From NCBI RefSeq assembly GCF_010681825.2, contig NZ_CP066776.1, positions 2,294,001 to 2,358,000 of the forward strand: a stretch of 64,000 bases of DNA, given 5' to 3'. The notes beneath the pieces were generated by a model. That model was not told the DNA's origin, did no database searches, and saw nothing but the letters and a program-made list of their open reading frames with translations. Positions 7,968 through 31,409 of the stretch are shown in pieces. The position numbers and the translations under genes were made by a program. Origin of the DNA: Sulfuriroseicoccus oceanibius (GTDB lineage: Bacteria > Verrucomicrobiota > Verrucomicrobiia > Verrucomicrobiales > SLCJ01). Every line of letters begins with the position of its first letter. The first letter of the stretch is position 1.

Positions 7968-7972
7968 AGAGA

Positions 7973-8386: not shown

Positions 8387-8392
8387 AGAACA

Positions 8393-8946: not shown

Positions 8947-8960
8947 AAGAAATAGACTCC

Positions 8961-9296: not shown

Positions 9297-9320
9297 CACT
9301 ACCTCCGAGACAAAAACCAA

Positions 9321-9446: not shown

Positions 9447-9455
9447 AGAAATGAC

Positions 9456-9827: not shown

Positions 9828-9922
9828 CCCGCTTCGAGTCGAATTTTCACCGTGATTACCAACCCTCACCCACAGTCAATCCGCGGCTGCCGTCAGGCGG
9901 TTGGTGTGCTATGACGTTGGGT
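9797..9922 (+). repeat. attC19 (type B, 126 nt)
   Basis: GCCGAAC to GTTGGGT. Nearly identical to attC18 in both arms; left core complements the cassette 19 start. Confidence 0.9.
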
Positions 9923-9935
9923 GAAAAATTAAGAA

Positions 9936-10325: not shown

Positions 10326-10372
10326 ACTCTCCCCTATTGCCTGGCCTAGTTGTCAGGTCTTTGATGTTCGAC
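10266..10372 (+). repeat. attC20, last and degenerate (107 nt)
   Basis: ACCCAAC to GTTCGAC. Left arm has CAACAGCG instead of CAACCGCG, and the right arm reads GGCCTAGTTGTCAGGTC instead of the usual GCGCGGTTGTCTGGCC, so stem pairing is weakened. No attC is visible to its right. Confidence 0.82.
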
Positions 10373-10376
10373 GGAA

Positions 10377-11012
10377 ATGAAGATCCTCTCCCTCCTGCTC
10401 CTGTTTGTAATTGGCTCGTTGCACAGTTTGGCGAACCAAGCAGACCGTGTGCGAGATATCTCTAAAGCGCTGCACTCAAGTAAGGTTCCTGAATTGGTGC
10501 TGGAGAAGTCGACATTCGAGGATGCTCTCGCTTTAGTTCGTGCTGAATGGAATAGACAGCACCCAACCCTGGATTTTCCAGTGGCACTTGCCGAATACGA
10601 GAGAGACCGCGGGCATCCTGATTTGATCACGGTGTCGCTTCGTGATGTGCTATTCATCGATGCATTGAGATCCCTGGGAGTTGTGGCTAACCGTCGCCTC
10701 ACAGAGAAAAGCGAACTACTGACGTTTAGCGACTACGGTCTGATTGTTGAGCATTGGATCACAAAGAGTTACCGCGTAACCGAATCTCTACTGAGGAAGC
10801 TAAAGTTGGGAAGGAATCCAACTGGAGAAGAGCTCGTTGCGGCGTATCGACGCTATGGCGTGATTCTGGAGGACTGGATGTCAATCAGCCACCAGGCAGA
10901 TGAGGGTTTGATCGTCACTGCTCTGGAAAAGCAGCAAGATCAGATTGCCGGCATTAATCACTTGCTGGCTCAAGGCTTTACGATACACAAGGCAGATCCG
11001 GCTCAAGAGTGA
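10377..11012 (+). CDS. Terminal integron gene, secreted, without attC
   Basis: 211 residues. Signal peptide MKILSLLLLFVIGSLHSLA. Residues about 35-115 (LEKSTFEDALALVRAEWNRQ, LDFPVAL, ITVSLRDVLFIDALRSLGV) resemble STN-like modules seen in verrucomicrobial and planctomycete proteins; the rest is helical. It directly follows the attC20 core, as a cassette gene would. The expected closing core GTCGAAC is absent downstream, so it is either a fixed terminal cassette that lost its attC or host DNA joined at the array end. Confidence 0.7.
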   Translation: MKILSLLLLFVIGSLHSLANQADRVRDISKALHSSKVPELVLEKSTFEDALALVRAEWNRQHPTLDFPVALAEYERDRGHPDLITVSLRDVLFIDALRSLGVVANRRLTEKSELLTFSDYGLIVEHWITKSYRVTESLLRKLKLGRNPTGEELVAAYRRYGVILEDWMSISHQADEGLIVTALEKQQDQIAGINHLLAQGFTIHKADPAQE

Positions 11013-11032
11013 AGCCCCCCTTTTAGCCCGTG

Positions 11033-11311
11033 ATGTTCCGTCGTGACCAGTTCGAGAAAAAGGCCCGCCGCATGAGACGTCTGGTAAATGCATTCATGAG
11101 CTTGATGGTGATGCTTCCGCTGGCTGGTATAGCGGCCCTGCTCTTGGGCTTCGCTGAGCCAGGCGATGGCGAGGGCGAGGGCAGCATGACCAAAGCCGAT
11201 GCATGTCTAATTCTTGGCGGAGCCGCTTTGGGGTTTCTTTTGTTCTGGAAGCTCTTGCTAATGGCACTGGACCAGCTCAGTCACCGACTGACCTCGCTCC
11301 GCCGCCGCTAG
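11033..11311 (+). CDS. Small membrane protein, hypothetical
   Basis: 92 residues from ATG 11033 (a GTG lies one codon upstream). Basic N-terminus (RRDQFEKKARRMRRL), then two membrane segments (AFMSLMVMLPLAGIAALLLGF and ACLILGGAALGFLLFWKLLLMAL) flanking an acidic Gly/Glu loop (EPGDGEGEG). No clear Shine-Dalgarno. It starts 20 bases after the terminal integron gene and may be co-transcribed with it. Confidence 0.5.
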   Translation: MFRRDQFEKKARRMRRLVNAFMSLMVMLPLAGIAALLLGFAEPGDGEGEGSMTKADACLILGGAALGFLLFWKLLLMALDQLSHRLTSLRRR

Positions 11312-11386
11312 CCGGGCAACTGCGCCGCTCCCCGCTGCGCCGCTGCGCCGCTGGGACACCTCTCAAACAGTTGCTCGAAGCGAGCA

Positions 11387-11428
11387 TAAAAAGAGCCGCC
11401 ACCCGACGATGGGTGGCGGCTCAAATTT
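11387..11428. terminator. Rho-independent terminator, bidirectional
   Basis: Perfect 12-bp stem GAGCCGCCACCC / GGGTGGCGGCTC (11393-11404, 11411-11422) with a 6-nt loop. A-run on the left gives a U-tract for the minus-strand permease gene; TTTTG on the right may serve plus-strand transcripts. Confidence 0.85.
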
Positions 11429-11452
11429 TGTCCTTTGAACGGCTCGCTAAAC

Positions 11453-12949
11453 TTACATCAGCTTATCGAGGAAAGCTGGAATGCCAGGCAGAATGCCAAC
11501 AGCAGCCATGATGAATGTGCAGACAGCAAACGCAGCACCTGGAATGACGACGCTGTCGGCAAACTTGAGCTCCTTGCCGCGATGCTTGTCTCCGATGAGG
11601 CCCATGTTGTCGAGCAGCATGGTCAGCGACCAGCCGAACACAGGGTTCACCAAGGCCGAAGCGAAGATACAGACACCAGCGGCCTGTGCGCTCTTCTCGT
11701 CGCGGATCATCTGCATACCGGCTTCGAGCAGTGGAAGGAAAACACCCACAAGGAGAGCGACCACGACCACAGGCTTCCAGCCTGCGAGGTCCATCGGGTA
11801 ACCGATGATAGCTGCGCCGATGCAGAAGATACCGGTGAGCACCGCGCCCGCAGGGATCGGGCGCTTGGCGATGGCCGCAGGAATCATGTAAGTTCCCCAC
11901 GAGCTGGCGAGGTTACCCCCACCGAGCAGTGTGCCCACTGCCTGACGAATCGAGGCAATGCTCATGGTATCGTCCACGTTCATCAGCGCCTTGGTGTTCT
12001 TAGGATAGTTCATTTCCTGGAACACGCGGTGGCCGAGGAAGTCTGGTGGCCACATGGCAACAGCCAAAAGCGCCCATGGGATCACAGCGAGCCACTCGGC
12101 TCCGGTTGGCAAGCCCATGCACCAGCCGGTGCTCTCACCCCACCAATATGCAGGGTTCATGTTTGGCAAGCCTGGTTCGGTCTTGAATGCGAACGGAGCC
12201 CCGAGGGCGTATGCCAGACCAAAGGCGATCGCAGAGCAGAGGGGAATCGAGAGCCAGCGCATCTTGAAGCGTGCGAGCACCGCATAGACAATGATGGTGA
12301 CGCCGATGAGGACGGTCGCCAAGTGTGGCACTCCGACTTCAGCGCTTGCGCCCCACGCCTTGAGTTGACCGACATACTTGATGGCGCCGGTCAGACCCAG
12401 GAAGATCAACAAGCCTCCCCTCACCCCCTTGCCGGTGAGAGTGATCAACTTTGAGCCTCCCTTACTCAAGCTGAGTGCAAGTCCCATCACAGCGACCGAC
12501 ACGCCGAGTGCCAGTGGGTGACCACCAGAGGCGACCACGCTGCCGATGACGGCGACCATCATTCCGTGGGTTCCCGCCAGGTTGGCGTTCGGATTGAGGA
12601 AGCCGGAGAACAGGAAGGCAAAGATCAAGCCCACGATGATCATTTCATAGCGGGTATTTTCCAGAACGAAGCCTGGGCTCAGCTCCACGCCCTGCACTTG
12701 CAGCGCAGTCGCCCAAACGCCGACGATTGCAGCCACCATCACCACCTTACCGATGGTTCCGGCGAGAGCAGGCACGACGTCTTCCGGCTCAAAATTGTAG
12801 TCACGGAACGGAAGATTGATCCCCCAACGTTTGGGGTTCATGATCGACAATTCGTGTTCGAGGTACTCGGCGCGGGTTTTGAACTCCCGCGACTTTTTCC
12901 GTCTTTGCTTGTAACTTAGTTCTTCCGATTCGTGATGCGTGTCGTGCAT
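11453..12949 (-). CDS. Polytopic permease, DUF3360-like (NCS2/SulP-type fold)
   Basis: 498 residues. A charged cytosolic N-terminus with EYLEHELSIMNPKRWGINLPFRDYNFEPEDVVP is followed by about 12-13 hydrophobic segments. SGFLNPNANLAGTHGMMVAVI and GSKLITLTGKGVRGGLLIFLG are conserved-looking re-entrant regions. From memory the N-terminal signature matches the DUF3360 family, thought to share the fold of NCS2 and SulP carriers; the substrate is unknown. The gene is alone between a terminator and a long upstream region with three dyad elements. Confidence 0.72.
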   Translation of the reverse strand: MHDTHHESEELSYKQRRKKSREFKTRAEYLEHELSIMNPKRWGINLPFRDYNFEPEDVVPALAGTIGKVVMVAAIVGVWATALQVQGVELSPGFVLENTRYEMIIVGLIFAFLFSGFLNPNANLAGTHGMMVAVIGSVVASGGHPLALGVSVAVMGLALSLSKGGSKLITLTGKGVRGGLLIFLGLTGAIKYVGQLKAWGASAEVGVPHLATVLIGVTIIVYAVLARFKMRWLSIPLCSAIAFGLAYALGAPFAFKTEPGLPNMNPAYWWGESTGWCMGLPTGAEWLAVIPWALLAVAMWPPDFLGHRVFQEMNYPKNTKALMNVDDTMSIASIRQAVGTLLGGGNLASSWGTYMIPAAIAKRPIPAGAVLTGIFCIGAAIIGYPMDLAGWKPVVVVALLVGVFLPLLEAGMQMIRDEKSAQAAGVCIFASALVNPVFGWSLTMLLDNMGLIGDKHRGKELKFADSVVIPGAAFAVCTFIMAAVGILPGIPAFLDKLM

Positions 12950-17206: not shown

Positions 17207-17242
17207 ATGAGCCCCACTGGTCCCACGACCGGTGGGGCTCAT
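17207..17242 (+). terminator. Stem-loop after pgi
   Basis: ATGAGCCCCACTGGTC pairs with GACCGGTGGGGCTCAT (one mismatch, 4-nt loop). No U-tract follows, so it may be a weak terminator or an mRNA-stabilising hairpin. Confidence 0.5.
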
Positions 17243-17429
17243 GTCGTTCTCACACGGCGCCACCCGAACCAAGGTCGGGCAGATTCTTTGCAACATCAGC
17301 AGCAACAGCGCAGTACTTGAGCCCGCATCCGACCTACCGGCACGGAACCAAGCACTTGCGCCCAATACACTTCAGGTTGCACCTGCAAGCGCCCGGACCC
17401 TCGCAATGACAGCGCCCCCCCCACCGCCC

Positions 17430-19955
17430 ATGAAACCTATATTGCAGCTAGTCATTCCCATTCTTGCGCTCACGGCCACAGGCCTGGCTGACGACACCAG
17501 CCTGCTGGAGATGGTCAAAAGGGTGCATCCGGATCATGCGGAGAGCATCGAGTTTCGATCCATCCCTGCTACTGATGGCAAGTCAGGCTTCACCATCAGC
17601 GCAGCAGACGGAAAGATTCAGCTGGCAGGATCGGACACATCGGCAAAGGCGGCCGCCTACGGCTGGTATCTGAAACACGTCAGTCGGTCTCACCTCTCGT
17701 GGAGCGGCGATCACCTGCGGGCCGGCGCACCGCTCCCAGACGAACCCATTAGCCAGAGCTCACCGTACCGCCACCGCTTTGCTTTCAACTACTGCACGCT
17801 CTCATACACCATGGCATTTTGGGACTGGGAGCGATGGGAACGCGAAATCGATTATCTTGCGATCAACGGCTACACCCATGCACTTGTCACAGCGGGCCTC
17901 GAAAAAGTATGGCAACAAACCCTGCACGAGCTTGGCTACCCGGAAGAAAAGACCCGTGACTGCATCGCCAACCCGGCGTTCGCCGCGTGGTGGCACATGG
18001 GCAATCTGGAGGGACATGGCGGACCGCTGAGCCAAGGGCTGATCGACCGCGAGGCCGAACTCGGGCGCAAGATCGTCAAGCGCATGAGGGAGCTCGGGAT
18101 TACGCCGGTGCACCAGGGTTTTGTTGGTCTTCTTCCCAATGGAATCGACGAACACGTGGAAGGACTTACGTTAGTCCCGCAAGGCCATTGGGTTGGCGGG
18201 TTCCGCCGCCCGACCGTGCTTGACCCTACGACCGACGCATTCCAAAAGATCGCCGAGGTATGGTACCGGAACCTGGAGGATGTCTACGGCGCTCGCGGCG
18301 AGGCATTTGGCGGGGACCTCTTCCACGAGGGAGGCAGCCACGGCAACATCAACGTCAAGGCTGCGGCCAAATCCGTTCAGCATGCAATGCAAACCGCGTC
18401 CCCGGACAGCACGTGGGTCCTCCAATGTTGGCACCACAACCCAAGCGACCAACTCATCAGCGGCACCAACCCGCAACACACCGTCGTTCTCCAGTTGAGC
18501 CGCAACATGCGCGACGGTAACAACGGCGCTCCATTGCGCACATTCCAGGGGCGACCGTGGCTGTGGGCAGAGCTCGCTAATTTCGGCGGCAATCACAACC
18601 TCTATGGCGGCAACCCACTGGTCGCGTCGCTGCCCTCGTTGCTATTGAATGAGAATCGCCCGCTTGGAGACATGGCCGGGCTGGCGCTGCTCTCAGAGGG
18701 TGTTGAGACCAACCCGTTCTACTATTCGCTGTTCTTTGATGCCGGCTGGCGGGCACAAGACATCGATCTTCAGCGTTGGATCCCGGCCTACGCCGAGCGT
18801 CGTTACGGCTCGGCGCATCCCTCGGCGGTAGCTGCACTCGAACTTCTAAACCGATCAGTGTACTCGCCCGAGGGGATTCAGGAAGGATGCACGGAGTCGA
18901 TTCTCTGCGCCAAACCGCGGCGCGACGCGAACAAAGCATCGACGTGGGCAACCGGCAGGATTTCCTACGATCCAATGGATGTCGTGCATGCGGCGCAGCA
19001 ATTACTCGATGCCGCGCCCGAACTCAGCGACCAAGCCACCTATCGCTACGATCTGGTAGACACCACCCGTCAGGTATTGGCCGATCTGGCCCGCCCGATC
19101 CTCGCCCAAACAATGGAAGCATACGATCGCGAGGACATTGCCTCATTTGACCTCTATTCACAGCGGTTTCTTGATCTAATCCGCGACACGGATTCACTCC
19201 TCGCCAGCGACCACCATTGGCTGCTGGGAACCTGGCTTGAAAGAGCGAAGGCAAAGGGCCACACCCTCGAGGAAAAGCGCCTGATGGAGTCGGCAGCGAG
19301 AAAGTTGATCACCACCTGGAGCAACCAAAGCGACGCGCTTGACGACTATTCACACCGTCAGTGGTCTGGCTTGATGAAAGATTACTATCTGGTGCGATGG
19401 CAGACGTTTTTCGATGTCCATGGCGAAGTGCTCGCCGGCCACAGAAGCCCAGACTCGCTGGTAGGATGGTATCCGGAATTACAGCAGGCCACCGACCTCA
19501 AGTTCGCGCATTTGACGAAAACCTACCCAACACACGCCACCGGCGATCCGGTCCAAGTTGCCACGCGTTTGATGGAGAAGTACGGCCCGCTTGCCGAATT
19601 CCTCTGGACCGCACACCAGCATCGCGACGGGCTCCCATGGAAACTAGACCACACCGGGATTCTGAGTTGGGATGTCTCGGACGCGATCACCGAGGCCGGA
19701 ACCCACACCGTCACGCTTGAGTGGACGTCCGGTGCGCATGCGCTCGAGATCGAGTCGGTCGAACTCTACGAAGGCGATCGACTCGTCGCCCAGGATAGGC
19801 ACACGGGACAAACCGGCTGGCAACACAAAGACAACCGCTACACCCTCGACCTCAAGAAGCTTCGAACCAACCTCGACGCCTACACTTTGAAAGCCAAAGT
19901 TCGCGGTGTCGGGGGGGGCGACTCGGCCGGAACACTCAAGATCTGTAGAGACTAA
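17430..19955 (+). CDS. Alpha-N-acetylglucosaminidase, GH89 (NAGLU-like)
   Basis: 841 residues from ATG 17430, which opens a good Sec signal (MKPILQLVIPILALTATGLA); upstream in-frame ATGs at 17232 and 17406 give non-signal extensions. NAGLU/GH89 landmarks: YRHRFAFNYCTLSYTMAFWD (about 113-132), WEREIDYLAINGYTHAL, NPAFAAWWHMGNLEGHGGPL (about 181-200), FGGDLFHEGG with Glu300, LANFGGNHNLYGG (about 382-394) and LSEGVETN with Glu423. By comparison with GH89 enzymes Glu300 and Glu423 are the likely catalytic pair (inference). It would release terminal alpha-linked GlcNAc in the periplasm or outside. It converges with the GH16 gene 30 bases away. Confidence 0.88.
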   Translation: MKPILQLVIPILALTATGLADDTSLLEMVKRVHPDHAESIEFRSIPATDGKSGFTISAADGKIQLAGSDTSAKAAAYGWYLKHVSRSHLSWSGDHLRAGAPLPDEPISQSSPYRHRFAFNYCTLSYTMAFWDWERWEREIDYLAINGYTHALVTAGLEKVWQQTLHELGYPEEKTRDCIANPAFAAWWHMGNLEGHGGPLSQGLIDREAELGRKIVKRMRELGITPVHQGFVGLLPNGIDEHVEGLTLVPQGHWVGGFRRPTVLDPTTDAFQKIAEVWYRNLEDVYGARGEAFGGDLFHEGGSHGNINVKAAAKSVQHAMQTASPDSTWVLQCWHHNPSDQLISGTNPQHTVVLQLSRNMRDGNNGAPLRTFQGRPWLWAELANFGGNHNLYGGNPLVASLPSLLLNENRPLGDMAGLALLSEGVETNPFYYSLFFDAGWRAQDIDLQRWIPAYAERRYGSAHPSAVAALELLNRSVYSPEGIQEGCTESILCAKPRRDANKASTWATGRISYDPMDVVHAAQQLLDAAPELSDQATYRYDLVDTTRQVLADLARPILAQTMEAYDREDIASFDLYSQRFLDLIRDTDSLLASDHHWLLGTWLERAKAKGHTLEEKRLMESAARKLITTWSNQSDALDDYSHRQWSGLMKDYYLVRWQTFFDVHGEVLAGHRSPDSLVGWYPELQQATDLKFAHLTKTYPTHATGDPVQVATRLMEKYGPLAEFLWTAHQHRDGLPWKLDHTGILSWDVSDAITEAGTHTVTLEWTSGAHALEIESVELYEGDRLVAQDRHTGQTGWQHKDNRYTLDLKKLRTNLDAYTLKAKVRGVGGGDSAGTLKICRD

Positions 19956-19984: not shown

Positions 19985-20833
19985 CTATTCGGCGGCTTCT
20001 TTATCCACGCCCTGGGTTTCCGGCGCCTCTCCTGCCGGCTCCGTGCGCTGGTAAACCCGCACGTAGTCCACCCGCATCAAGGCCGGGAATGGCGTTGTCG
20101 CATTCGGGACACCCGGCCAATTCCCACCCACCGCAAGGTTGATGATCAGGTGGAACGGCTGGTCGAACGGAGCGGGGTACGGGGCCGCGGTACTGTCCCA
20201 TTTGTTAATGGTCTGATACAGCTCGCCGTCGACATACCAGCGCATCTCGGTGGGCTCCCACTCCAGGGAGAACACATGGAATTGCTTGGAGAAATCCCCA
20301 TTGGGAACGCTGAAATGGCTACCTGAGTGGCGGTTGTTGGGCCATTTGTCGCCGAAATGCAGCGTGCCGTGCACTTTGTCCGGCTGGTGCCCGACGGTTT
20401 CGACGATATCGATTTCACCGGAGGCCGCCCAGCCACCGTAGCGCTCGTCTTCCGGCAGCATCCAGATAGCCGGCCAGATCCCCTGCCCCTTGGGTAGTCG
20501 CGCCCGAACTTCAAAGCGCCCGTACTGCCAGGCGGCGCGGCGTTTGGTGCGGATGCGCCCGCTGGTGAAGTCGCGCTGCACCCCGGCGACATTCACCTTT
20601 TCCCGGTTCGCCTGAATGACGAGGTATCCGTTCTCAGTCCGGACGTTTTTCTTGCGGTCGAGGTAGTACTGTAACTCCTGATTGCCGCCACCGTGGCCGT
20701 TCTCCTCAACGGCCCACTTGCTGAAGTCCAACTCGGGGCCGTCGAACTCATCGCTCCAAACGAGGCGCCACTGGGACGCCTCGTTTGCTAAAACGAAATT
20801 TGCTACCGAAAGAAATAAGACAAGAGCTCTCAT
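19985..20833 (-). CDS. Secreted GH16 endo-beta-glucanase (laminarinase-like)
   Basis: 282 residues. Signal peptide MRALVLFLSVANFVLA. The catalytic GH16 motif GEIDIVETVGHQ is intact, with WSDEFDGPELDFSKW near the start, QYGRFEVRARLPKGQGIWPAIWMLP and the C-terminal INLAVGGNWPG and MRVDYVRVYQ. This fits beta-1,3 or mixed-linkage glucan hydrolases. It is the last gene of a four-gene unit (GT2, HlyD-like, TolC-like, GH16), 30 bases after the TolC-like gene, suggesting it trims or releases the exported glucan. Confidence 0.9.
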   Translation of the reverse strand: MRALVLFLSVANFVLANEASQWRLVWSDEFDGPELDFSKWAVEENGHGGGNQELQYYLDRKKNVRTENGYLVIQANREKVNVAGVQRDFTSGRIRTKRRAAWQYGRFEVRARLPKGQGIWPAIWMLPEDERYGGWAASGEIDIVETVGHQPDKVHGTLHFGDKWPNNRHSGSHFSVPNGDFSKQFHVFSLEWEPTEMRWYVDGELYQTINKWDSTAAPYPAPFDQPFHLIINLAVGGNWPGVPNATTPFPALMRVDYVRVYQRTEPAGEAPETQGVDKEAAE

Positions 20834-20863
20834 GAATCCGGCAGCAGTCTACGCAGGAATGGC

Positions 20864-22192
20864 TTACTTGCCAAACACGCGGTCGATCTGCGCGACCAAC
20901 TCACGGCTCCAACCGCCCTTGGCAGCATAGAGATCCGCTTGGGTCTTCAAGAAATTGAAGCGGCCGTTGATCTGCTGACGGACCTGCGATTCGTAGATAA
21001 GGAAGGCATTGACCATCTGGATGTAGTCCTTCTCGCCACCTTCGCGGTAAGCGGTCTCGGTAGCCTTGTGAATGGTAGCCTGATGGGCGACCAACTCGTC
21101 GAGGCTGCGCAGGTTGACGCGAGCCAACTGAAGGCTCTGCTCACTGAAGCTGGACTGACGGCTGTTACGCTCCACCAAGGCGGCGAGCACAGCTTCCTTC
21201 GCCTTCTTCATGTAGCTCAAGCGCTTCGCTTCGGAGCGGTTGATTCCGCGGTCGAAGCAGTCCCACTTGAGCATCACTCCAGCCTCGTAACCATTGAGTG
21301 TACGACCAGTACCGAAAAGGGAGCCATCCGAGTCATCGTGCAATGCGAGACCGTACAAGCTCAAGCGCGGCACATCCTTGCGGCTGACGCTCTTGATCTG
21401 GCTCTCCAATGCGTCGATCTCCGCCTGCAGTGCCTGCAGTTGTGGATCCGCGTTCACCTCACCCTTTGCCGTGGCAGGCATGGTCAACTCACGGCTACCA
21501 CCGAGGGTCAGTCCCGCCGTGGCCTTCTGATCCAAGCCAAGGCTCATCAACAAACGCTGACGCTGCTGGCCGAGGAGGCGCTGCTCCTGCTTCATGGCAA
21601 CAAGCGCGGACTTGATATTCTCCACGTCTTCAACGGTCGCAACACGCTCCTTGAGTCCTTCGGAGACGCGGCCGAGCTCGGCTTCCAAATAACGAACCAC
21701 ACGCTGATGCGACGCTTCCAAGTTGGCAAGGCGCACCGCTTCGAGGAACGACTCAACGAATTGCTCGGTCAGCTCTTCCTCTTTGCTCTCGAGCAATGCC
21801 GACTGATAGCGCTGCTTGGCTTTTGCCTGATCCACCTTGTGCTTGAGGGTGAAGTCCAACAACGGCTGGTCGATCTCCAACTTGGCGCGTGTATTGTTAT
21901 AGTTGGTGCTCCCCTCTTGGAAAACCCCTTCACCGTCCTGATCAATGTCTTGACCGATGGCAAGCTGTCGCAGCTCAAGCTCCATCTTAGGAAGGTAGCC
22001 GCGCTTCTCGCTAACCACCTCCTGGCCGGCTGCCTTCACCAGATAGTTCTGGCTAACCAAATCCGGGTTCCCAGCCAAAAAGCTTTCGTAGGCGTTGTTC
22101 AGTTTTCCGGCTTCCGCCTGAGTCAGGGCCGCGCTGGCGACCATCAAACCTGCAACCACAGGTCGCAGTAAATGCTTGGTATTCGTCATCAT
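20864..22192 (-). CDS. TolC-family outer-membrane channel
   Basis: 442 residues. Signal peptide ending near LTQAEA. Two repeats of long amphipathic helices (QAKAKQRYQSALLESKEEELTEQF..., NLRSLDELVAHQATIHKATETAYREGGEKDYIQ) with intervening beta segments (YLPKMELELRQLAIG, VPRLSLYGLALHDDSD), the architecture of OEP/TolC channel proteins. It lies 151 bases downstream of the HlyD-like gene. It would form the outer-membrane duct of the polysaccharide exporter encoded with the GT2 synthase. Confidence 0.88.
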   Translation of the reverse strand: MMTNTKHLLRPVVAGLMVASAALTQAEAGKLNNAYESFLAGNPDLVSQNYLVKAAGQEVVSEKRGYLPKMELELRQLAIGQDIDQDGEGVFQEGSTNYNNTRAKLEIDQPLLDFTLKHKVDQAKAKQRYQSALLESKEEELTEQFVESFLEAVRLANLEASHQRVVRYLEAELGRVSEGLKERVATVEDVENIKSALVAMKQEQRLLGQQRQRLLMSLGLDQKATAGLTLGGSRELTMPATAKGEVNADPQLQALQAEIDALESQIKSVSRKDVPRLSLYGLALHDDSDGSLFGTGRTLNGYEAGVMLKWDCFDRGINRSEAKRLSYMKKAKEAVLAALVERNSRQSSFSEQSLQLARVNLRSLDELVAHQATIHKATETAYREGGEKDYIQMVNAFLIYESQVRQQINGRFNFLKTQADLYAAKGGWSRELVAQIDRVFGK

Positions 22193-22343
22193 CTTACTAG
22201 AGCCCCCGGGGGCGAGCGTCTGTTTTTATCTCGTAGGGATTATTCCGCTTTTGTGCAGAACCGCCGAGAGATCACTAGCTTATCAATCAAGCGTGTCTAG
22301 CTCTTTTTGACAAAACAACGTTTTGCAAGCTACAGCGACGCCC

Positions 22344-23567
22344 TCACTGCTGGTTGCGCAGCATCAAGGTCAGGCGCACAAGACTGCGGTTCACCACTCC
22401 GGGACTACTACTGGTGACAACCACCTTACCCAACTTACCCACTTCATCGACGGACAACTCATCCCCGTTGATTTCAACCACCACCCTCAGCATCGAACTG
22501 CTAGGAGCCACCGAGTTCACCACATACAGGTCGTTGGATCCGTGCTCCTGCGGCTTCACCTCGACCACCTTGCCCGAAATCAACCGCCCGTCTCCGCGCA
22601 ACTGAACGAAGGCATGATCTCCAGGGAAAACGGTATCCTGATAGTAGCGGTGGAAGAACGACTCAACGAAGACTCCATCGCGATCCGCCAGCTGGACAAG
22701 CGACTGGCCGGTGGAGACATTCTGACCATCGACCGCCTGGCGCATCCACACCATCCCGTCAGACGGACTGGTGATCTCCACACTCTCAAGGCTACTGAGG
22801 TACTCCGAGTTGGTCTTGATGAGTGACTGGGCCTCGGTGAGCTGCAACTGCAAGTCGCCTCGCTGTGTCTTGAGCTCGCGGATCTCATGTTGGAGCGAAG
22901 CGATCTCACTGGTCAGCGCGTCGTTGCTCTCGGTTTGGGCAACGTGCAGCCCGGCCTTGGCGAGATCCAAGCTATCAGCCACCCTCAGGCTCTCGCTCTC
23001 AAATGCCTGCAGCCGCTTCTCCGCCTCCAGCGCCAGCTTGCTTCTTTCAAGCCGCTTCGAGCGCGTGACAATCCCCTTCTCAACCAAGCTCTCCATGCGG
23101 TCTTCTTCCTCGCGCATCAGCTCAAGCTCGCGACGTGCCAGATCTTTCTTTTGGGTTAATGCGGACAATTCCGCGCTCAGTGTCGCGACTGTCTTGGCTG
23201 TGCGCTGAGCGTATTCGAGGTTGTCTTTCTCGAGCTCCGCGTTGCGCTGCGAAAGTGCCAGCTCGGTATTCGCAAGCTGGGTTTGCAGACGCTTTTCCAA
23301 GAAGCGCAACTGCTCGACCTCGCGCTTCAACGCCGACTGATCCTGCTCCACGTTTGCAACCACCTGCCCTTTGGTAACGGCAGCACGCGCCCCCACAGCA
23401 ATGGACTGCACGATGCCGTCGGTCTGGCTGTTAATCTGCACCTTGCGCGTGTTCACCACCGCGTGGCTACTCGACGGGAAATACGGCGGCAGCAAGATCG
23501 ACCACAGCGACAACGCCACCAACACAAGCGCGATGGCAATTTTGAGGATTCGAAAAACTCGTGACAT
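22344..23567 (-). CDS. HlyD/EmrA-type membrane fusion protein
   Basis: 407 residues. One N-terminal membrane helix (IAIALVLVALSLWSILLPPYF), a biotinyl-lipoyl-like half (VQINSQTDGIVQSIAVGARAAVTKGQVVANVEQD), a long coiled coil about residues 75-255 rich in Glu/Leu/Arg, the second lipoyl half (VEITSPSDGMVWMRQAVDGQNVSTGQSLVQLAD) and a beta-barrel end. It begins 17 bases after the GT2 stop, so the two are transcribed together. It is the periplasmic bridge between the synthase and the TolC-like channel, comparable in position to BgsB-type subunits of glucan synthases. Confidence 0.9.
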   Translation of the reverse strand: MSRVFRILKIAIALVLVALSLWSILLPPYFPSSSHAVVNTRKVQINSQTDGIVQSIAVGARAAVTKGQVVANVEQDQSALKREVEQLRFLEKRLQTQLANTELALSQRNAELEKDNLEYAQRTAKTVATLSAELSALTQKKDLARRELELMREEEDRMESLVEKGIVTRSKRLERSKLALEAEKRLQAFESESLRVADSLDLAKAGLHVAQTESNDALTSEIASLQHEIRELKTQRGDLQLQLTEAQSLIKTNSEYLSSLESVEITSPSDGMVWMRQAVDGQNVSTGQSLVQLADRDGVFVESFFHRYYQDTVFPGDHAFVQLRGDGRLISGKVVEVKPQEHGSNDLYVVNSVAPSSSMLRVVVEINGDELSVDEVGKLGKVVVTSSSPGVVNRSLVRLTLMLRNQQ

Positions 23568-23584
23568 AAGCGATGAGGGATTGG

Positions 23585-25297
23585 TTACTGGGCGACTTTG
23601 CGCGCCAGGGAAAAGAATGATTTACGGAAACTGCCGGTGGTCGCCGGCAAGGACGAGCGGCTGCCATCCGCAGCGAATGGAGGCTCCACGCAGGCCAGCA
23701 AGGCCAGGAATGTCATCCACAAGTAGAAGGTGGTAAGAGCAAGAATCAGACCGAGGTTCTCGTTGGCAAAATTCGTGGCAGGCAGACCAAACAAGAAGGT
23801 CTTCGCCATTCCGCCAAGCGTTACCGCGAGCAGCACCAGATGCGGTGTGGCGACCTGCCAGTTGATCGTGGCCCGGTCACGACTCAGGTTCTTATCCGTC
23901 ACTTTGAACACACCTCCACGCGGGTTGATTAATGTGACAAAGATCGCGCGCAGAATGTGGAAGACGCTGACGAATCGCCCCAGCTCTGAGATCACCGGCA
24001 TCACCTTTCGCTCGGTAAGCCAATAGAGAACCAGAGTCGAAACCAGCACCCGCGGCGCGAACATCATCAGCAGGTGACCGTTGTCGGAGTCAAATGGCGC
24101 GCGCCCGGTCCACCAGAAAACGGCCGGAGCAATCAGCACGAAAAAGAACCAGATCGAACTCAGGTAATACCCCATCGTGTCGAAAAAGAACACGCGGTCC
24201 AAAAGCGACAACCCGCGTGAGCGGATCGGCCCGGATTTCAAAAACAAACATTGCAAGGTCCCCGTACACCAACGCACCCGCTGGGTGATGAAGGTACTGA
24301 GTGTGTCCGCCGCCTTGCCGAGCGCCAACGGAGCCAGATGGAAACGCGTGATCCATCCGTGCTCCTTGAGCTTGTAGGTGAGCAGGAGATCCTCACAAAT
24401 CGACTCGACCGGGAACCCACCAATGCGGTCGATGCACTCGCGACGAACCACAAAGTTCGTGCCGTAGCAGAATGCATTGTCCCAGTTGTCGCGGCACGGC
24501 TGCATCACGTCGGTGAAGATGCGTTGTTCCTCAGGCCACGACTGTCCGCCGTTCAAGTTGAGCTGAATGGCGTCTGGATTGTCGAAGTGTTGAGGCGTTT
24601 GCACGATACCGACGGCGTCATCATCGAAGTAGCCCAACGTCTCCAATAGAATGTCCGGATCAACCACAAAATCCGCGTCGAGACACATGATGAAGTCACC
24701 CTTGGCCTGCTTGAGTGCGTTGTTCAAATTGCCCGACTTGAACCCACTCCGGTCCTGACGCGTCACGTAGTGGACACCGGCATCGGCGCACAATTCTTCC
24801 AGCCAACCGCGCTCGCCATCATCGAGCACGTACACGTTAACGTTTGGATAATTGATCGCACTCGCGCCCAGAATCGTGGGACGCAAAATCTCCAACTCCT
24901 CGTTGTAGGTGGCGATGAATACATCCACGGACGGGCAATCTCCATCCGGGTCCAGACGGCGGTATCCTTTTTCCTCCGGCTTGCGCGGGCGCTGAATGAA
25001 AACAATCAAGTGCCACGAGAGCGAGCACAACGCGACCAACTCCGCCACAAAGAAGCCCCACTGCCACACAGATTCCGCGCTGGAAAGGAACGGATCCATT
25101 GTCGTGCCAAGCCGCCAGTTGAAGTAGCGAACGTTTAAGAAGATCGCCAGACCAGCCAGAGCGAACCGCAACCAGCCCTTCTGCGGGTCGAGATTACGGA
25201 CCAGTAAAAACAGCCCCACGAAAAGCAAAAGGTTCGAAAGCAATCCTGGAAAGTCACTAAACATACTGGTGATCACGTCGGGGGCTCGTTTCTCCAT
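23585..25297 (-). CDS. Membrane GT2 glycosyltransferase, cellulose/beta-glucan synthase type
   Basis: 570 residues from ATG 25297; a GTG at 25306 is an alternative. Two N-terminal helices plus one at about 80-103, a cytosolic GT-A domain, then four to five helices. Processive synthase motifs are all present: VLDDGERGW, CLDADF (about 207-209), ICEDLLLT, and QRVRW (about 339-343). No C-terminal PilZ domain is visible, unlike BcsA. The combination with HlyD-like, TolC-like and GH16 genes points to a beta-1,3 or mixed-linkage glucan rather than cellulose, but the product cannot be read from sequence alone. Confidence 0.9.
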   Translation of the reverse strand: MEKRAPDVITSMFSDFPGLLSNLLLFVGLFLLVRNLDPQKGWLRFALAGLAIFLNVRYFNWRLGTTMDPFLSSAESVWQWGFFVAELVALCSLSWHLIVFIQRPRKPEEKGYRRLDPDGDCPSVDVFIATYNEELEILRPTILGASAINYPNVNVYVLDDGERGWLEELCADAGVHYVTRQDRSGFKSGNLNNALKQAKGDFIMCLDADFVVDPDILLETLGYFDDDAVGIVQTPQHFDNPDAIQLNLNGGQSWPEEQRIFTDVMQPCRDNWDNAFCYGTNFVVRRECIDRIGGFPVESICEDLLLTYKLKEHGWITRFHLAPLALGKAADTLSTFITQRVRWCTGTLQCLFLKSGPIRSRGLSLLDRVFFFDTMGYYLSSIWFFFVLIAPAVFWWTGRAPFDSDNGHLLMMFAPRVLVSTLVLYWLTERKVMPVISELGRFVSVFHILRAIFVTLINPRGGVFKVTDKNLSRDRATINWQVATPHLVLLAVTLGGMAKTFLFGLPATNFANENLGLILALTTFYLWMTFLALLACVEPPFAADGSRSSLPATTGSFRKSFFSLARKVAQ

Positions 25298-25608
25298 TGT
25301 GTGCACGCATCTTCAGTGGCGATGGTTGCGCGGCACATCCGGCTCCTCATGGAAGGCGCAGAAACTACGCGCATTAGGCCAATTCGACAAGCCCAACCCA
25401 CGATAATAACCAAAATCCAACGGGCGCGGCGCAGAATGGAGAAACGCGAAGCTACACCCAAACAAACAGCGCCCACCTCACCGCCCGAGGCGCCGTCGAC
25501 CTGGCTTAGGATCAGAGAGTTGCTGCCACGCCACCAGAGCCGACGAAATCATAGATGGCGGGAATCGACACTCGCCCGCTGCGCGTATAACCACTAAGCT
25601 CCACTCCA
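25298..25608. other. Divergent intergenic region, no gene seen
   Basis: About 310 bases between the glucan operon (minus) and tamB (plus). A 98-codon plus-strand frame here has no protein-like character. No terminator or clear operator was found; it presumably holds two divergent promoters. Confidence 0.5.
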
Positions 25609-28600
25609 ATGCCATCAGATCCACCATCCGACCGAGATCGCCGGGTGCCGACCGATCCCCCCGCGGAACCGTCGCCGCCCCAGCCCAAGAAGAGGCGGCG
25701 TTGGCTCAAACGACTGGCCGTATTGGCAATACTCATCCTCGTCGCGGTCTGGGCTATCAACGGACCGATCTTCCGCTGGGCACTAGGCTCCATCGTTCCC
25801 GACCAATTGGAAAAACGCGGCATCACACTCCAGTGGGAGGCAGGTGGGAGCTTGTGGTCCGGCATCAATTGCCGCGAAATCTCAGTCGAGACCAACGAGA
25901 GCACCGGCGTGGTTTCCTCAACCACCGCTGGCTCACTTGAGGTGGACCTCGACTGGTGGCGGTGGCTACGAGGCAATCTGGCGCAGCCGGTCACTAGACT
26001 GGACTTACTCGGCGTTTCTACCGATGCCAGACTACTCGAACAAGAGAAGGTAGCTGAGCCACCAAAACCGAAAAAAAACGAACGCCCTGCGGGAGAACAA
26101 GCCGGCGACCTCTTTCAAACCATTCAACGCTTCACCGCCGGCACCCGCGCCCGGATAGAGATCGAGACCCTCCGCCTGACGACGCCATCAACTCAAACCT
26201 TCGAGGTCGAGAACGCTGAGCTGACCGTCGACCGAGCCGAAGCCATCTCACTCAGTCTGGCTGAGACTTCAGTGGCTGGTTTCGATCCGATGCTTGGGTT
26301 CCAACTCGAGCTTAAGCCCAAGGATCGGAGGGTTCGCCTGCAAAACTTCGCGCTCGGTGATGCTGTCCAAGTGAAGCTGGCCGCCCTGACACTAGCCGAC
26401 GACGAGCAGCTCAGGATCACCCTCGACAGCCACCTCTTTGGCGGGGACCTGAGTGGTGAGATCTCCGAGGACCGCACATTCGCCTTCGAGATCACCAACG
26501 GGGAAATCGACTTCGATGCGCTCGATCAATTTCTTGAGTCGCTGTTCGACAAGCGCCTGTTCCTACCCTCCGGCCGCATCACCAAACTGAGCCTCGCAGG
26601 TAAACTGGGAGCCGGCAAGGTGCTCGAAACCTTGGAGGCGGACACCCGCTTGAATGTGGTGGACTTCGCACTTGGGAAACGGCGCTTAGGTGACATTTCG
26701 CTTCATGCCGGCGCCGAAAACGCGACCCTGAGATCCTACGTTTTAAGCGTAAAAGCACCTCATAAGCACCTCGAGTTAAAGAACGCGACCCTCCCTGTAT
26801 CGAAACTTACTCACAAACGCCCGTGGACGCAGATCACCACCGAGTCCTTGCGCCTCGAAGTTGCAGATCTTCACGAAGCGCTGTCTGAGTACCACGTCCG
26901 CCCGGGCGATGCGATGCCCGCGTTGGCTGTCGTCCTCGAAGGCACCACAGCCCCCTCTCCTCATTCAGATGCGTGGTACCCACATGCCACGCTCAACGCG
27001 CTCGGCCGCCCGCTGGCTGATGCTTTGGATCTCGACATAGAGGTCGATGTCGACAGCGATGGCGCGTTCCATTCCCCCATCGACTGGCAGGTTAGAGTCC
27101 GCGATAACGTCAGCGCCCCAGCCATCGGCAATCCCGAAATTGCCGGCAGCGGAACATTCACAATCAAATCACTTGGACTCACCGGTGACCTGGCGCTGCA
27201 GATCACACCTGAGTTCCCGCTGGCAAAAACGGTCGCCTGGAGCGGAGCACAGTTACCCATCGACGGTGACGTCACTCTCGATGCCACCAGTAACTTCGAT
27301 ATGCGCTTCGGGAAAAACGCGCACTACACCGGCACGTGCCGGGTCAACACGGTGAAGCTCATCGGCGCCTCGTCATTCCCCGACCTCACCGCATCGCTCG
27401 AAGCCGGGTTAGCCAAAAATCACGCCTACGCCCGTAACCTTGAGGCCGAAGTCAACGAACTCAACATAGCCGGCGGAGTGGACTGGAAGAACAAGCGTCT
27501 CGGGATCCCGCGCCTCACCGTGACCCATGACAACAGTGGGGCAAAACTCGACCTTACTGCGGACCTTCCCTTCCCTCTGAAATCGATCGCTTCTCCTGAA
27601 GTGCTGCTCGAATCAGCCGATCCAATCGAACTAAAGCTGTCGCTAAAAGCTGCGAGTCTGGCCGACTTCGACCCGCTGCTCGAATTGGGCGGACTATCCA
27701 GCGATTCGTTAGGCATCTCCTCCGGGGAAATCGATGTGGAAGTCGACGTCACCCGGACCAAGCGTGCCGACCACGCGCCGGCAGTGGATCTCGCCGCACA
27801 GATCGATCAATTACGTATCGCCAGCGACCCAATCGGCGAGCCGATCTCGATTCAAATCGACCTCAGCGCAGACCAATCGACCCAACTCGATGCCGCCGTA
27901 AAATACGGGGATCTGACGAGCTTGAAGATGACCGGCCGCATGCCTTGGGAGCCTCTGGCATGGGTAAAGAAAGAGCGTGAAATCAGCAGTGAAAACCTTG
28001 AGGTTGATGCGCTTGTTGAGTCCATCCCGCTGGAGCCCTTCGCACCGCTGGCGCCGGTTATCGAAGAATTGAAAGGCTCGCTCACCGTGCGAGCGAGAAT
28101 GACCGGATCCGTGGGCAACCCGATGTTATCAGGCTCCACCAACCTGCAGGTGGCAGTCGCCCGCTTTGACCTACCGGTATTCCCAGGACTGCGAGACCTT
28201 AGCCTGAAGACCTCCACTGAGAACAACCAACTCACGATCACCGACGGCTCCTTCGAGTCGGCCGGAGGAAAGTACGAACTCGGCGGCACAGTCGACTTGA
28301 GCACGATGACCCAGCCCGCGTTCGACCTTCGGCTCGCAACCGACGAAGCCCTGGTCTACCGAGACGACGCCATGACCATCCGCGCCGATGCCAACCTCAC
28401 GTACACCGGCACACTAGCAGAGTCGACACTCGCCGGAGACGTCGGACTGGTGCGCCCGCTTTATTACAAAGAGTTCAACATTCTCTCCACCGATTCCACC
28501 GGTGGCGCAGGAACACCCCATCAACTCCCCACCTTCAGCACCACGCCGACCGGACCTGCCACAGACTCCGATGAGGGTAACACCGAGCCTCCCGCCCCCT

Positions 28601-29268
28601 CGTTTCTGGATACCTGCAAACTGGACGTCCATGTCACCACGGCGGACAAGGCCCGGGTTCGCACCGACATCGCGACAGCAGATGCGGTGGCTGCGGTGCA
28701 CGTGGGCGGATCGCTGAAGAAGCCTGAGTTGTTTGGTGAAGCAAAGGTATTGCGGGGTTCTGCCCAACTACCATTCACCCGCATCGACGTGACACAGGCC
28801 ACAGCCGTCTTCCGGCCAGCCTACGGGCTGACCCCTAGGATCAATGTTCAAGCCCAGAGCCAGGCGGCGCGTCACACAATCCAGATTTTCGTGAGCGGGA
28901 GCGCAACCGCTCCCCAAGTCATCTTCACCTCCACCCCCTACCTCCCGCGGCAGGATGTGCTTACCCTTCTTGCCACAGGCTCCACTCGCAGCAACCTGGA
29001 AGGCGGTGGCTCCGCAGCACTCAAAGCGGTGATGTTGTTATCCCAAAAAGTAGCAGCTGACCAGGACCGCTCGCGCATCATGCGCTGGATTGCGGGCAGT
29101 TTGAGGTTCATCAGCAACATCGAAGTGGGAATCGGCGAAACCAACCGGCTCACCGGCAAGCGATCGAACTCAGCAGAGGCAGAACTCACCGACCGCCTGC
29201 GCTTCCGTGTTGAGTACGATGAGAGCGACTCACGTGCGGCCTTGATCTATAACTATCCGCTTGATTAA
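25609..29268 (+). CDS. tamB: TamB-like translocation/lipid-transport protein (DUF490)
   Basis: 1219 residues. Pro-rich basic N-terminus (PKKRRRWLKRL), one membrane helix (AVLAILILVAVWAI, about residues 35-50), then a very long beta-helical repeat region, and a C-terminal DUF490-type end (RGSAQLPFTRIDVTQATAVF, TPYLPRQDVLTLLATG, ...LRFRVEYDESDSRAALIYNY). TamB spans the periplasm and works with an Omp85 protein in outer-membrane biogenesis and phospholipid transport. The Omp85 partner starts 30 bases downstream on the same strand. Confidence 0.9.
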   Translation: MPSDPPSDRDRRVPTDPPAEPSPPQPKKRRRWLKRLAVLAILILVAVWAINGPIFRWALGSIVPDQLEKRGITLQWEAGGSLWSGINCREISVETNESTGVVSSTTAGSLEVDLDWWRWLRGNLAQPVTRLDLLGVSTDARLLEQEKVAEPPKPKKNERPAGEQAGDLFQTIQRFTAGTRARIEIETLRLTTPSTQTFEVENAELTVDRAEAISLSLAETSVAGFDPMLGFQLELKPKDRRVRLQNFALGDAVQVKLAALTLADDEQLRITLDSHLFGGDLSGEISEDRTFAFEITNGEIDFDALDQFLESLFDKRLFLPSGRITKLSLAGKLGAGKVLETLEADTRLNVVDFALGKRRLGDISLHAGAENATLRSYVLSVKAPHKHLELKNATLPVSKLTHKRPWTQITTESLRLEVADLHEALSEYHVRPGDAMPALAVVLEGTTAPSPHSDAWYPHATLNALGRPLADALDLDIEVDVDSDGAFHSPIDWQVRVRDNVSAPAIGNPEIAGSGTFTIKSLGLTGDLALQITPEFPLAKTVAWSGAQLPIDGDVTLDATSNFDMRFGKNAHYTGTCRVNTVKLIGASSFPDLTASLEAGLAKNHAYARNLEAEVNELNIAGGVDWKNKRLGIPRLTVTHDNSGAKLDLTADLPFPLKSIASPEVLLESADPIELKLSLKAASLADFDPLLELGGLSSDSLGISSGEIDVEVDVTRTKRADHAPAVDLAAQIDQLRIASDPIGEPISIQIDLSADQSTQLDAAVKYGDLTSLKMTGRMPWEPLAWVKKEREISSENLEVDALVESIPLEPFAPLAPVIEELKGSLTVRARMTGSVGNPMLSGSTNLQVAVARFDLPVFPGLRDLSLKTSTENNQLTITDGSFESAGGKYELGGTVDLSTMTQPAFDLRLATDEALVYRDDAMTIRADANLTYTGTLAESTLAGDVGLVRPLYYKEFNILSTDSTGGAGTPHQLPTFSTTPTGPATDSDEGNTEPPAPSFLDTCKLDVHVTTADKARVRTDIATADAVAAVHVGGSLKKPELFGEAKVLRGSAQLPFTRIDVTQATAVFRPAYGLTPRINVQAQSQAARHTIQIFVSGSATAPQVIFTSTPYLPRQDVLTLLATGSTRSNLEGGGSAALKAVMLLSQKVAADQDRSRIMRWIAGSLRFISNIEVGIGETNRLTGKRSNSAEAELTDRLRFRVEYDESDSRAALIYNYPLD

Positions 29269-29297: not shown

Positions 29298-31409
29298 ATG
29301 ACCACTCCCCTCCGATTGTCACTTCCTCTTGTTGCCGTACTGGCGCCTTGGCTTGCCATTGCTACCGCCACGGCTCAGGACGACGATCTTCCCGCGCGCA
29401 ACTTTGAAGGTGAGATCAAGCAATGGATCAACCGCGCATCCCTCAGCTCAGAGGCGCAAACCAGCCAGGTTCAACTCAACATCGAAGGGATAGATGCCAA
29501 GTTAGAGGAGGATATGAGAGCGCTCGCGGGCCGGCGCATTGACTACTTGTTGGAGCCACCTGCAACGCGGGCGGTTGCCGACGACCTCGCTTTCATTTTC
29601 GAGCGCTTGTTCCACGAGCATGGGTACCCCGAAGCCCGGATCGATTGGGAGCTGGTCAACTCGATGAGCGTCCGGCTCAATGTGGATACCGGACCGGCTG
29701 CGGCAGTGGGCGAGGTCACTATTACCACTACTGGAGGGGCCTCCCTCGATGAAGAGTTGATGCGGGAGATCCTGCTGGCGCCAAGTATCACCAGCGATGA
29801 CATCCAGCGCGATTTCATCCCGTTTGTAGAGAGGCTGATCCAGCGGGGAACGAAAAACGTCGAAGCGTGGCTGGATTCCCAAGGGTACTGGCTGGCCACG
29901 GTTGAGCTTAAGATCCCCGAGGCCGCCGACGCACAAAACCGTTATCCACTCGAGCTATCAGTCGATACAGGCCCTCTGATTCAATTCGGCAAGGTCACTC
30001 TGGTCGATCTGGAGACGGGAGAGAGCCGGTTGATTCAGCCCGCGATTGAGAAGATCAAAGGAGAGACAGCAACTGCCGAGCGGTTGATTCAGTTTGAGCA
30101 GGAGATTGCCGCAGCTTTTGACAAAGAAGGCTACTACAACACACAAACCCGCTTCACCCAAGAGATCGAGGGCAACCGCATGAACCTCACTGTGGCGGTG
30201 CTCCCCGGCCGACTTTTGAATGTCGGGGAAATCAACTTCCTCGGATACGAGCGCACCAAGCGAAGCGCACTCGACAGACGTTTCCGCAGCCTCAAGGGCA
30301 CGCTGTACAGTGCCGATCGCTTCCAGGCCAAGCTCGAGACGCTGTATCGAACCGGGATATTCAGCCGCATCGACGTGGAAGAAATCGTCGAGCCGGACAA
30401 CACAATCGACTACACATTGACCATCCACGAGGGCACCTCCAAGCGCATCGGCGTCTCCGGTGGAGTTAGCAGCGAAAGTGGTGGCTACTCCGGGATCCAG
30501 TACCGCGACCACAACGTACTGGGCAAGATGCATCGGTTTGATGTGGAGTTCGAGTACTCGGCGCTGGGGCTCAGAGGCGACCTGGCTTATGGCGTTCCTT
30601 GGATCTTCGGTGACCGCACGATGTATCAGGCGCGGTTGTTTGCGATTGCGCGGGATTACGCGGCCTACGACAAGTTCGAATACGGCTGGCAGAGTGTGCT
30701 CGAGTTCCGCCCGAACGAGCACTACAAGCTCTCACTCGGGCTCGACGGTGCATTCACCGACATCAGCGGACTGGAAATCGCCGAGACACTCACAGGGCCA
30801 ACCGATTACTATTTCTCAAAAGTCAGCATCAACCAAAGCTATGACAAGCGGGACGACGCTGTGAACCCACGCAAGGGATGGATAGCGGCGCTCAATGTGG
30901 ATGCGGCCGGAGGGTTCCTCGGCAGCGATGTGAACCTGATCCGCACCGACGCCCGGCTCGCGTGGTATCTTCCGCTGGGAGATAGCAGCCACATCCGACT
31001 GGTAGGTGCCGGCGGTGCCCTCTACGAACCAGACGGCGAACGCACCGTTCCCATCGACCAACGGTTCTTCCAAGGCGGAGCGTCGGGCATTCGCAGCTTC
31101 CGCGAACGTCGGGGCCCGCCCTACTCCCCAAGCGGAAAACCCATCGGCGGCAATTCTTACAAACTCGCCAGTGCGGAATTGGTAGGCCCGATCAAAGGCC
31201 CGGTGAAGTTCGTCTTGTTTGCCGATGCCGGAAATGTCACCGAATCTACTGATCCACTGAATTTCTCTAACAGCGAGGTCGCGGTAGGCGCCGGCCTCCG
31301 GGTGAACCTCCCGACAGGACCGATTCGACTTGAATACGGCCACAATATGACGCACGACGATGGGGAAACCGAAGGCACCCTCCACTTTGTGATCGGCATC
31401 TCATTCTAA
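29298..31409 (+). CDS. tamA: TamA/BamA-type Omp85 outer-membrane protein
   Basis: 703 residues. Signal peptide ending near ATATAQ. Residues about 60-390 hold POTRA-like repeats (VNVDTGPAAAVGEVTITTTGG, VDTGPLIQFGKVTLVD, GRLLNVGEINFLGYERTKRSALDRRFRSLKGTLYSADRF, FSRIDVEEIVEPDNTIDYTLTIHEG) and the rest is a beta-barrel with GGASGIRSFRERRGPP, the conserved Omp85 loop motif, and terminal HFVIGISF. Pairing with tamB favours the TamA role over BamA. Confidence 0.9.
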   Translation: MTTPLRLSLPLVAVLAPWLAIATATAQDDDLPARNFEGEIKQWINRASLSSEAQTSQVQLNIEGIDAKLEEDMRALAGRRIDYLLEPPATRAVADDLAFIFERLFHEHGYPEARIDWELVNSMSVRLNVDTGPAAAVGEVTITTTGGASLDEELMREILLAPSITSDDIQRDFIPFVERLIQRGTKNVEAWLDSQGYWLATVELKIPEAADAQNRYPLELSVDTGPLIQFGKVTLVDLETGESRLIQPAIEKIKGETATAERLIQFEQEIAAAFDKEGYYNTQTRFTQEIEGNRMNLTVAVLPGRLLNVGEINFLGYERTKRSALDRRFRSLKGTLYSADRFQAKLETLYRTGIFSRIDVEEIVEPDNTIDYTLTIHEGTSKRIGVSGGVSSESGGYSGIQYRDHNVLGKMHRFDVEFEYSALGLRGDLAYGVPWIFGDRTMYQARLFAIARDYAAYDKFEYGWQSVLEFRPNEHYKLSLGLDGAFTDISGLEIAETLTGPTDYYFSKVSINQSYDKRDDAVNPRKGWIAALNVDAAGGFLGSDVNLIRTDARLAWYLPLGDSSHIRLVGAGGALYEPDGERTVPIDQRFFQGGASGIRSFRERRGPPYSPSGKPIGGNSYKLASAELVGPIKGPVKFVLFADAGNVTESTDPLNFSNSEVAVGAGLRVNLPTGPIRLEYGHNMTHDDGETEGTLHFVIGISF

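Follow-up and report, generated by a model that had tools for sequence, protein, structure and literature searches.

A probable beta-glucan synthesis, export and trimming unit pairing a BgsA/CrdS-type synthase with HlyD and TolC partners in Sulfuriroseicoccus oceanibius

Introduction

A family 2 glycosyltransferase (GT2) synthase, an HlyD-like adaptor, a TolC-like channel and an endoglucanase come together in the XcsA-XcsB-TolC model, which was proposed for cellulose in Thermosynechococcus vulcanus (Maeda et al. 2018, as described in PMC12430437 and PMC7582838). The same functional layout is found in the locus described here, a four-gene unit within a 64,000-nucleotide stretch of the genome of Sulfuriroseicoccus oceanibius (contig NZ_CP066776.1, positions 2,294,001 to 2,358,000; referred to as the window). 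According to PMC7582838, cellulose-mediated aggregation of T. vulcanus needs xcsA, xcsB (HlyD-like), xcsC (endoglucanase) and a TolC. The review PMC12430437 states that the model lacks experimental validation and that its genes do not form a single operon, and it calls the applicability of the XcsAB-TolC model to operon-organized clusters open. In these descriptions, the xcs genes are scattered, XcsA has a PilZ domain and is responsive to cyclic di-GMP (c-di-GMP), and the product is cellulose. In the window, in contrast, the four genes lie together, the regulatory domain is missing and the GT2 is of the BgsA/CrdS type; the likeness is one of functional layout, and by GT2 descent the window system is nearest to bgsBA and crdASC.

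In Sinorhizobium and Rhizobium, bgsBA is responsible for a mixed-linkage beta-glucan. Here the HlyD-type BgsB adjoins a PilZ-less GT2, BgsA, to which the window GT2 is about 37% identical, and an RLT tip is present in R. etli BgsB as in the window adaptor. The BgsA C-terminal tail binds c-di-GMP (PMC5567048), whereas the window GT2 lacks this tail and is about 100 residues shorter. No TolC or hydrolase was seen beside bgsBA at the loci examined. The synthase of the Agrobacterium curdlan cluster crdASC belongs to the same supergroup as the window GT2, with Q at position 298 in both, but CrdS has 655 amino acids (aa) including a C-terminal region, and its partners are CrdA and CrdC. No HlyD was found beside CrdS, and no crdA- or crdC-like gene was noted at the window unit, where no profile search for them was made. 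The cellulose system bcsABC shares the GT2 catalytic core and the FxVTxK loop; it differs in that the window has HlyD, TolC and GH16 in place of BcsB/BcsC and GH8, has no PilZ and belongs to another clade. Literature searches for BgsA or curdlan synthase together with TolC turned up no account of the operon seen here.

Results

Organization of the locus

We consider it likely that the unit encodes a dedicated trans-envelope line that makes and exports an extracellular beta-glucan without c-di-GMP gating, together with a trimming enzyme. The list of open reading frames and Pfam searches gave a minus-strand unit with the transcription order GT2, HlyD, OEP/TolC and GH16, just as it had been read in an initial annotation of this DNA, and all four window proteins scored above the curated Pfam cut-offs. 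The genes are as follows.

23585..25306, minus strand: GT2 processive synthase of the BgsA/CrdS supergroup without the regulatory domain, 573 aa (Pfam GT2 families, tree, motifs)
22344..23567, minus strand: HlyD-type periplasmic adaptor (membrane fusion protein), 407 aa (Pfam HlyD_3, AlphaFold2 model, Foldseek)
20864..22192, minus strand: TolC/OEP-family outer-membrane channel, 442 aa (Pfam OEP, two repeats)
19985..20833, minus strand: secreted laminarinase-type GH16, 282 aa (Pfam GH16, signal-like N-terminal segment)

Three start positions are candidates for the GT2 gene, namely, 25306 (the longest frame, GTG), 25297 (the next ATG, used in the initial annotation) and 25264 (suggested by homology to relatives). 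The intergenic gaps are 17 bp (GT2-HlyD), 151 bp (HlyD-TolC) and 30 bp (TolC-GH16), and the operon-like grouping points to co-transcription of the four genes. Since the unit is bordered by a divergent TamB gene (25609-29268, plus strand) and a convergent NAGLU/GH89 gene (17232-19955, plus strand), it contains no further minus-strand gene, and no ABC, MFS or RND transporter was found within the four-gene unit. The TamB-like gene is followed by an Omp85/POTRA TamA-like gene (29298-31409) to form a TAM pair, and the NAGLU/GH89 gene encodes a full-length alpha-N-acetylglucosaminidase.

Phylogeny and residues of the synthase

The catalytic motifs of the GT2 (DDG, DADF, ICED, QRVRW and FKVTDK) are all intact. 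Two of them were mapped as follows.

24269..24283, minus strand: QRVRW (QxxRW) catalytic motif, residues 342-346
23891..23908, minus strand: FKVTDK gating-loop motif (FxVTxK), residues 467-472, kept though no regulatory domain lies downstream

The closest matches to the GT2 in named plasmid records were HlyD-paired BgsA-type synthases with 36-38% identity. A tree was read against S. meliloti 1021 BgsA, R. sphaeroides BcsA (the core taken from the PDB alignment), other BcsAs and one CrdS (L060, plasmid pAspH13-3a). The identity of the last was checked at 10 AtumCrdS residue numbers (PMC6821405), all 10 of which landed on the correct letter, and the gene upstream of it begins after AGGAGTTGATATCATG, a near-match to the published crdA site. 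L060 1818-6751 is itself a crdASC-like curdlan cluster carried by the plasmid; crdASC of Agrobacterium is located on the linear chromosome (PMC10819609).

The window GT2 was placed inside the BgsA/CrdS supergroup (support 100/100) and within a 10-member clade of its own (100/100), while the BcsA clade (100/100) left it outside. The enzyme is thus nearer to BgsA and CrdS than to cellulose synthase, and it has an HlyD partner as in bgsBA; both likenesses had been anticipated in the initial annotation. The GT2 did not fall within the S. meliloti/R. etli BgsA clade; its own 100/100 clade is separate, within the same supergroup. Membership of BgsA proper was rejected on this separation and on the missing C-tail, and BgsA, together with CrdS, remains the nearest relative. 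The window clade appeared as sister to CrdS at 80/58 only, with CrdS on a long branch, making this placement unreliable.

Specificity residues were read at positions contacting the nascent chain, in R. sphaeroides BcsA numbering; of these, positions 302, 412, 417 and 480 are named as glucan contacting in PMC6821405. At position 298 the window clade has Q, common to CrdS and BgsA, where BcsA mostly has N. Position 309 is R, as in BgsA, compared to K in CrdS, and the window GT2 has a DADF motif instead of the BcsA pattern DADH.

L021-L024, synthases from the same phylum as the window, joined BgsA in the tree with support of 99/98, and every one of them is adjoined by an HlyD. L021, the one tested, gave a C-terminal Pfam PilZ match.

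Absence of the regulatory domain

After the FKVTDK-type gating-loop motif, 102-109 residues follow in those clade members whose C-terminus is intact, compared to 190-210 in the CrdS and BgsA-type rows and about 230-290 in full-length BcsAs; the window GT2 itself stops about 100 residues past the motif. The intact clade members lack the entire regulatory domain, beyond PilZ alone. The window GT2 had no Pfam PilZ match, so that its description as PilZ-less held and could be extended to the whole C-terminal domain. Profile searches of the source genome (a single contig of 3.50 Mb, 95.5% complete) gave no GGDEF or PilZ match, whereas the same searches found GGDEF in 8 and PilZ in 5 of 14 control genomes. 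With no C-terminal domain in the protein and neither match in the genome, c-di-GMP control of the window synthase is unlikely, and the question of c-di-GMP binding raised at the outset appears largely settled toward no control. A genome-wide loss of c-di-GMP signaling was considered as an explanation for the short synthase; however, GGDEF is encoded in six of the nine other clade genomes (21 in Granulicella), and such a loss therefore fails as the general cause.

The HlyD-type adaptor and its docking motif

In the AlphaFold2 model of the adaptor (predicted local distance difference test score [pLDDT], 85.8), a membrane helix at the N-terminus is combined with lipoyl halves, a barrel and a coiled-coil arm whose first helix is 86 residues long. 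The best Foldseek matches were EmrA and MacA; global TM-scores were low because the long arm bends, and the model supports the fold type only. The following motif was located at the tip of the hairpin.

23064..23099, minus strand: TolC-docking (RLS/RLT) motif R-x3-L-x6-T, RMESLVEKGIVT, adaptor residues 157-168

R157, L161 and T168 are at the predicted tip, with residues 157-168 spanning the end of one helix (163), the tip loop and the start of the next helix (169). An RLT/RLS-like tip was present in 11 of 11 aligned adaptors, K or Q replacing R in three. The motif is taken from PMC3391258, according to which the RLT motif of Escherichia coli HlyD contacts TolC and its mutation abolishes secretion. 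A tblastn search of 72,556 plasmids with the window HlyD returned 14 records, all from Rhizobium, and in the one that was opened the match sits immediately before a BgsA-type GT2.

Lineage of the TolC channel

Counted by locus, the source genome encodes eight OEP-type proteins, namely, the window TolC and seven paralogues. The window TolC matched the TolCs of related operons with E values of 5E-78 (L020), 8E-68 (L032) and 2E-26 (L050, Gammaproteobacteria), compared to 7E-6 for the best of its own seven paralogues. This closer match to operon TolCs than to paralogues is direct sequence evidence that the TolC lineage is tied to the synthase, and it supports the initial proposal of a TolC dedicated to the synthase. 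No TolC profile match was found beside the BgsA, CrdS, PilZ-HlyD or BcsA comparison loci, some of which have short flanks.

Clade members and gene orders

The clade comprises, in Verrucomicrobiota, the window, L020 (from the class of the window), L030 (a Rariglobus metagenome-assembled genome [MAG]) and L032; in Acidobacteriota, Granulicella rosea (L033/L054) and a Terriglobus MAG (L035); and in Gammaproteobacteria, the MAGs L031 and L034, along with L049 and L050, which share the order of L031. HlyD adjoins GT2 in every member with a visible flank (9 of 10), the contig of L032 beginning within the GT2 gene, and the two genes overlap in L020, L030, L031 and L049. Across the units, genes overlap or are almost contiguous in several. 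Seven of the 10 have a TolC gene, or a fragment of one, next to the GT2 unit. The contigs of L034 and L035 end before the TolC site, and that of L031 (TolC-HlyD-GT2) is likewise cut by the contig end. In L049, nothing but a 181-aa frame that gives no OEP match is present in the slot occupied by TolC in relatives (11500-12045); it may be a TolC remnant.

The window order GT2-HlyD-TolC-GH16 is one of several. The order is HlyD-GT2-GH26-TolC in L020 and L030, GT2-GH26-TolC in L032 (upstream side cut off), TolC-HlyD-GT2-GH26 in L050, and HlyD-GT2-TolC in Granulicella, followed by an unassigned lipoprotein-like gene. Unrelated bacteria repeatedly have the GT2-HlyD pair accompanied by TolC, a secreted hydrolase or both, in differing orders. 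The grouping is therefore not due to chance, and an association that survives rearrangement is stronger evidence than a conserved order. Clade members are rare: the window and one other genome among 384 of the class sample, 4 of 109 genomes of the gammaproteobacterial order and 1 of 250 of the acidobacterial class. No clade GT2 was found in the 56 nearest relatives of the source genome, the congener included. This rare and patchy distribution suggests horizontal transfer of the system.

The hydrolase slot

The GH16 catalytic motif was found at the following position.

20399..20416, minus strand: EIDIVE (ExDxxE) GH16 catalytic motif, residues 140-145

The best PDB matches of the GH16 were laminarinases/endo-beta-1,3-glucanases (E value of about 1E-65). 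In relatives, the slot holds a secreted GH26-family protein whose best solved match is a beta-1,3-xylanase (E value of 8E-30). Its conserved glutamates were seen in GYEFD and EASA, which we take to be the two conserved glutamate sites of GH26. Since GH16 and GH26 are unrelated families that both act on beta-1,3 bonds, a product with such bonds is plausible on this circumstantial evidence. The last Granulicella gene (L033 11609-12592) gave no Pfam or PDB match; to read it as GH17-like was rejected, and it stays unassigned. In an HlyD-GT2 pair on a Palleronia plasmid (L016 4769-10140), the GT2 is followed after about 1.2 kb by a GH8 gene, which adds a further hydrolase family close to an HlyD-paired synthase.

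Other features of the window

In positions 1-12000 the G+C content is 0.49-0.54, lower than the value of about 0.58-0.60 elsewhere. Small frames are numerous there, several of them with signal-like starts, and the segment was possibly acquired recently. A full-length DUF3360 protein, of a family without an assigned function, is encoded at 11453-12949. In the region 43441-49217, a multidomain protein with NAD(P)-disulfide reductase, rhodanese, TusA and DsrE-like domains is encoded close to a sulfate permease gene.

Discussion

In the proposed mechanism, the GT2 would polymerize a nucleotide sugar, most likely UDP-glucose as judged from its family and motifs, and thread the chain through the inner membrane. 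The HlyD-type adaptor, anchored beside the GT2, would dock through the RLT motif at its hairpin tip onto its own TolC-family channel, a step to which the motif, the model and co-inheritance all point, and the three proteins would form a continuous duct to the outside. The secreted laminarinase-type GH16 may then cleave chains that are misdirected or too long, either in the periplasm or on the cell surface; this trimming role, here as in the initial annotation, is suggested by family membership. The product is most likely a beta-glucan, and the laminarinase-type partner suggests that it probably has beta-1,3 bonds. Because the regulatory domain is gone and recognizable GGDEF/PilZ proteins are absent, control would be exerted elsewhere, at the level of expression, substrate supply or the HlyD/TolC partners.

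A TolC duct serving a processive synthase had initially been taken for a distinct layout. Such a duct has a precedent in the XcsA-XcsB-TolC model for T. vulcanus cellulose, cyanobacterial cellulose being the only product for which this export layout has so far been proposed. What is new relative to that precedent is that all four functions are co-encoded, without c-di-GMP control. The initial comparison with curdlan and mixed-linkage synthases stood as to the BgsA/CrdS supergroup but not as to a choice between the two linkages, which is not readable from the sequence, the channel-entrance residues fitting no known class.

Several observations weigh against a dedicated export line for beta-glucan, and they are considered here with the alternatives that they favor. 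The GH16 might be a nutritional laminarinase hitchhiking at the end of the unit with no role in synthesis, which we regard as unlikely, though less so than the other alternatives. Among the clade operons GH16 occupies this slot in the window only, where it is the last gene and is followed by the convergent GH89 gene. Against this, relatives fill the same slot with a different secreted hydrolase, whose gene at times overlaps the GT2 gene by 4-10 bp, and hydrolases accompany many polysaccharide synthases.

It is rather improbable that the product of the synthase is a polymer, beta-1,3-linked or otherwise, that lies outside the known glucan classes and to which the hydrolase is matched. The sugar and linkage of the product are read from sequence only, and the GT2 structure model was of low confidence (pLDDT, 61.9) and was set aside. 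The clade has its own residues at the glucan-contacting positions 302, 412, 417 and 480: position 302 is S/T (Y in BcsA, F in CrdS and BgsA), and position 417 is H/Y (W or Y in BcsA, W in CrdS and BgsA). A product unlike those of BcsA, CrdS and BgsA is thus conceivable, and the GH26 partner of the relatives is nearest to a beta-1,3-xylanase. However, the hydrolase in the window is a glucan enzyme, a GH16 of the laminarinase type; Q298 is common to CrdS and BgsA, and R309 to BgsA (K in CrdS); and the catalytic set is intact.

We also doubt strongly that HlyD and TolC form a pump, for efflux or type I secretion, that has no relation to the adjoining glucan synthase, the product of the latter being released into the periplasm. 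HlyD/TolC pairs are common in pumps, TolC families are often shared by many pumps, and the genome has eight OEP-type proteins. The 151-bp gap that parts GT2-HlyD from TolC-GH16 could have room for a separate promoter, and other synthases may manage without a dedicated TolC, none being present beside the examined BgsA/BgsB pairs. Yet no clade unit contains a transporter gene, HlyD remains beside GT2 across several gene orders, with overlapping genes in four loci, and the TolC lineage tracks the operon rather than the genome. The sole plasmid matches of the window HlyD, moreover, are those from Rhizobium, adjoining a BgsA-type GT2 where opened. Finally, an ordinary cellulose operon minus bcsB and bcsC, favored by a best curated profile of cellulose synthase (TIGR03030, yet with 375 bits against a 699-bit cut-off), was dismissed as scarcely credible on the exclusion from the BcsA clade at 100/100 and on DADF and Q298 in place of DADH and mostly N.

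Extending the reading of a dedicated export line to the whole clade is more tentative. The members may form a distinct, horizontally scattered class, in which the GT2, independent of c-di-GMP and with a product specificity of its own, is always accompanied by HlyD, normally by a lineage-specific TolC, and by an interchangeable beta-1,3-acting hydrolase; we hold this to be possible rather than probable. The clade provides a new natural comparison set for the determinants of beta-glucan linkage. With compact loci, several of them with overlapping genes, and no c-di-GMP control in the window, the hypothesis of a TolC route becomes testable by transfer of the four genes to a laboratory host.

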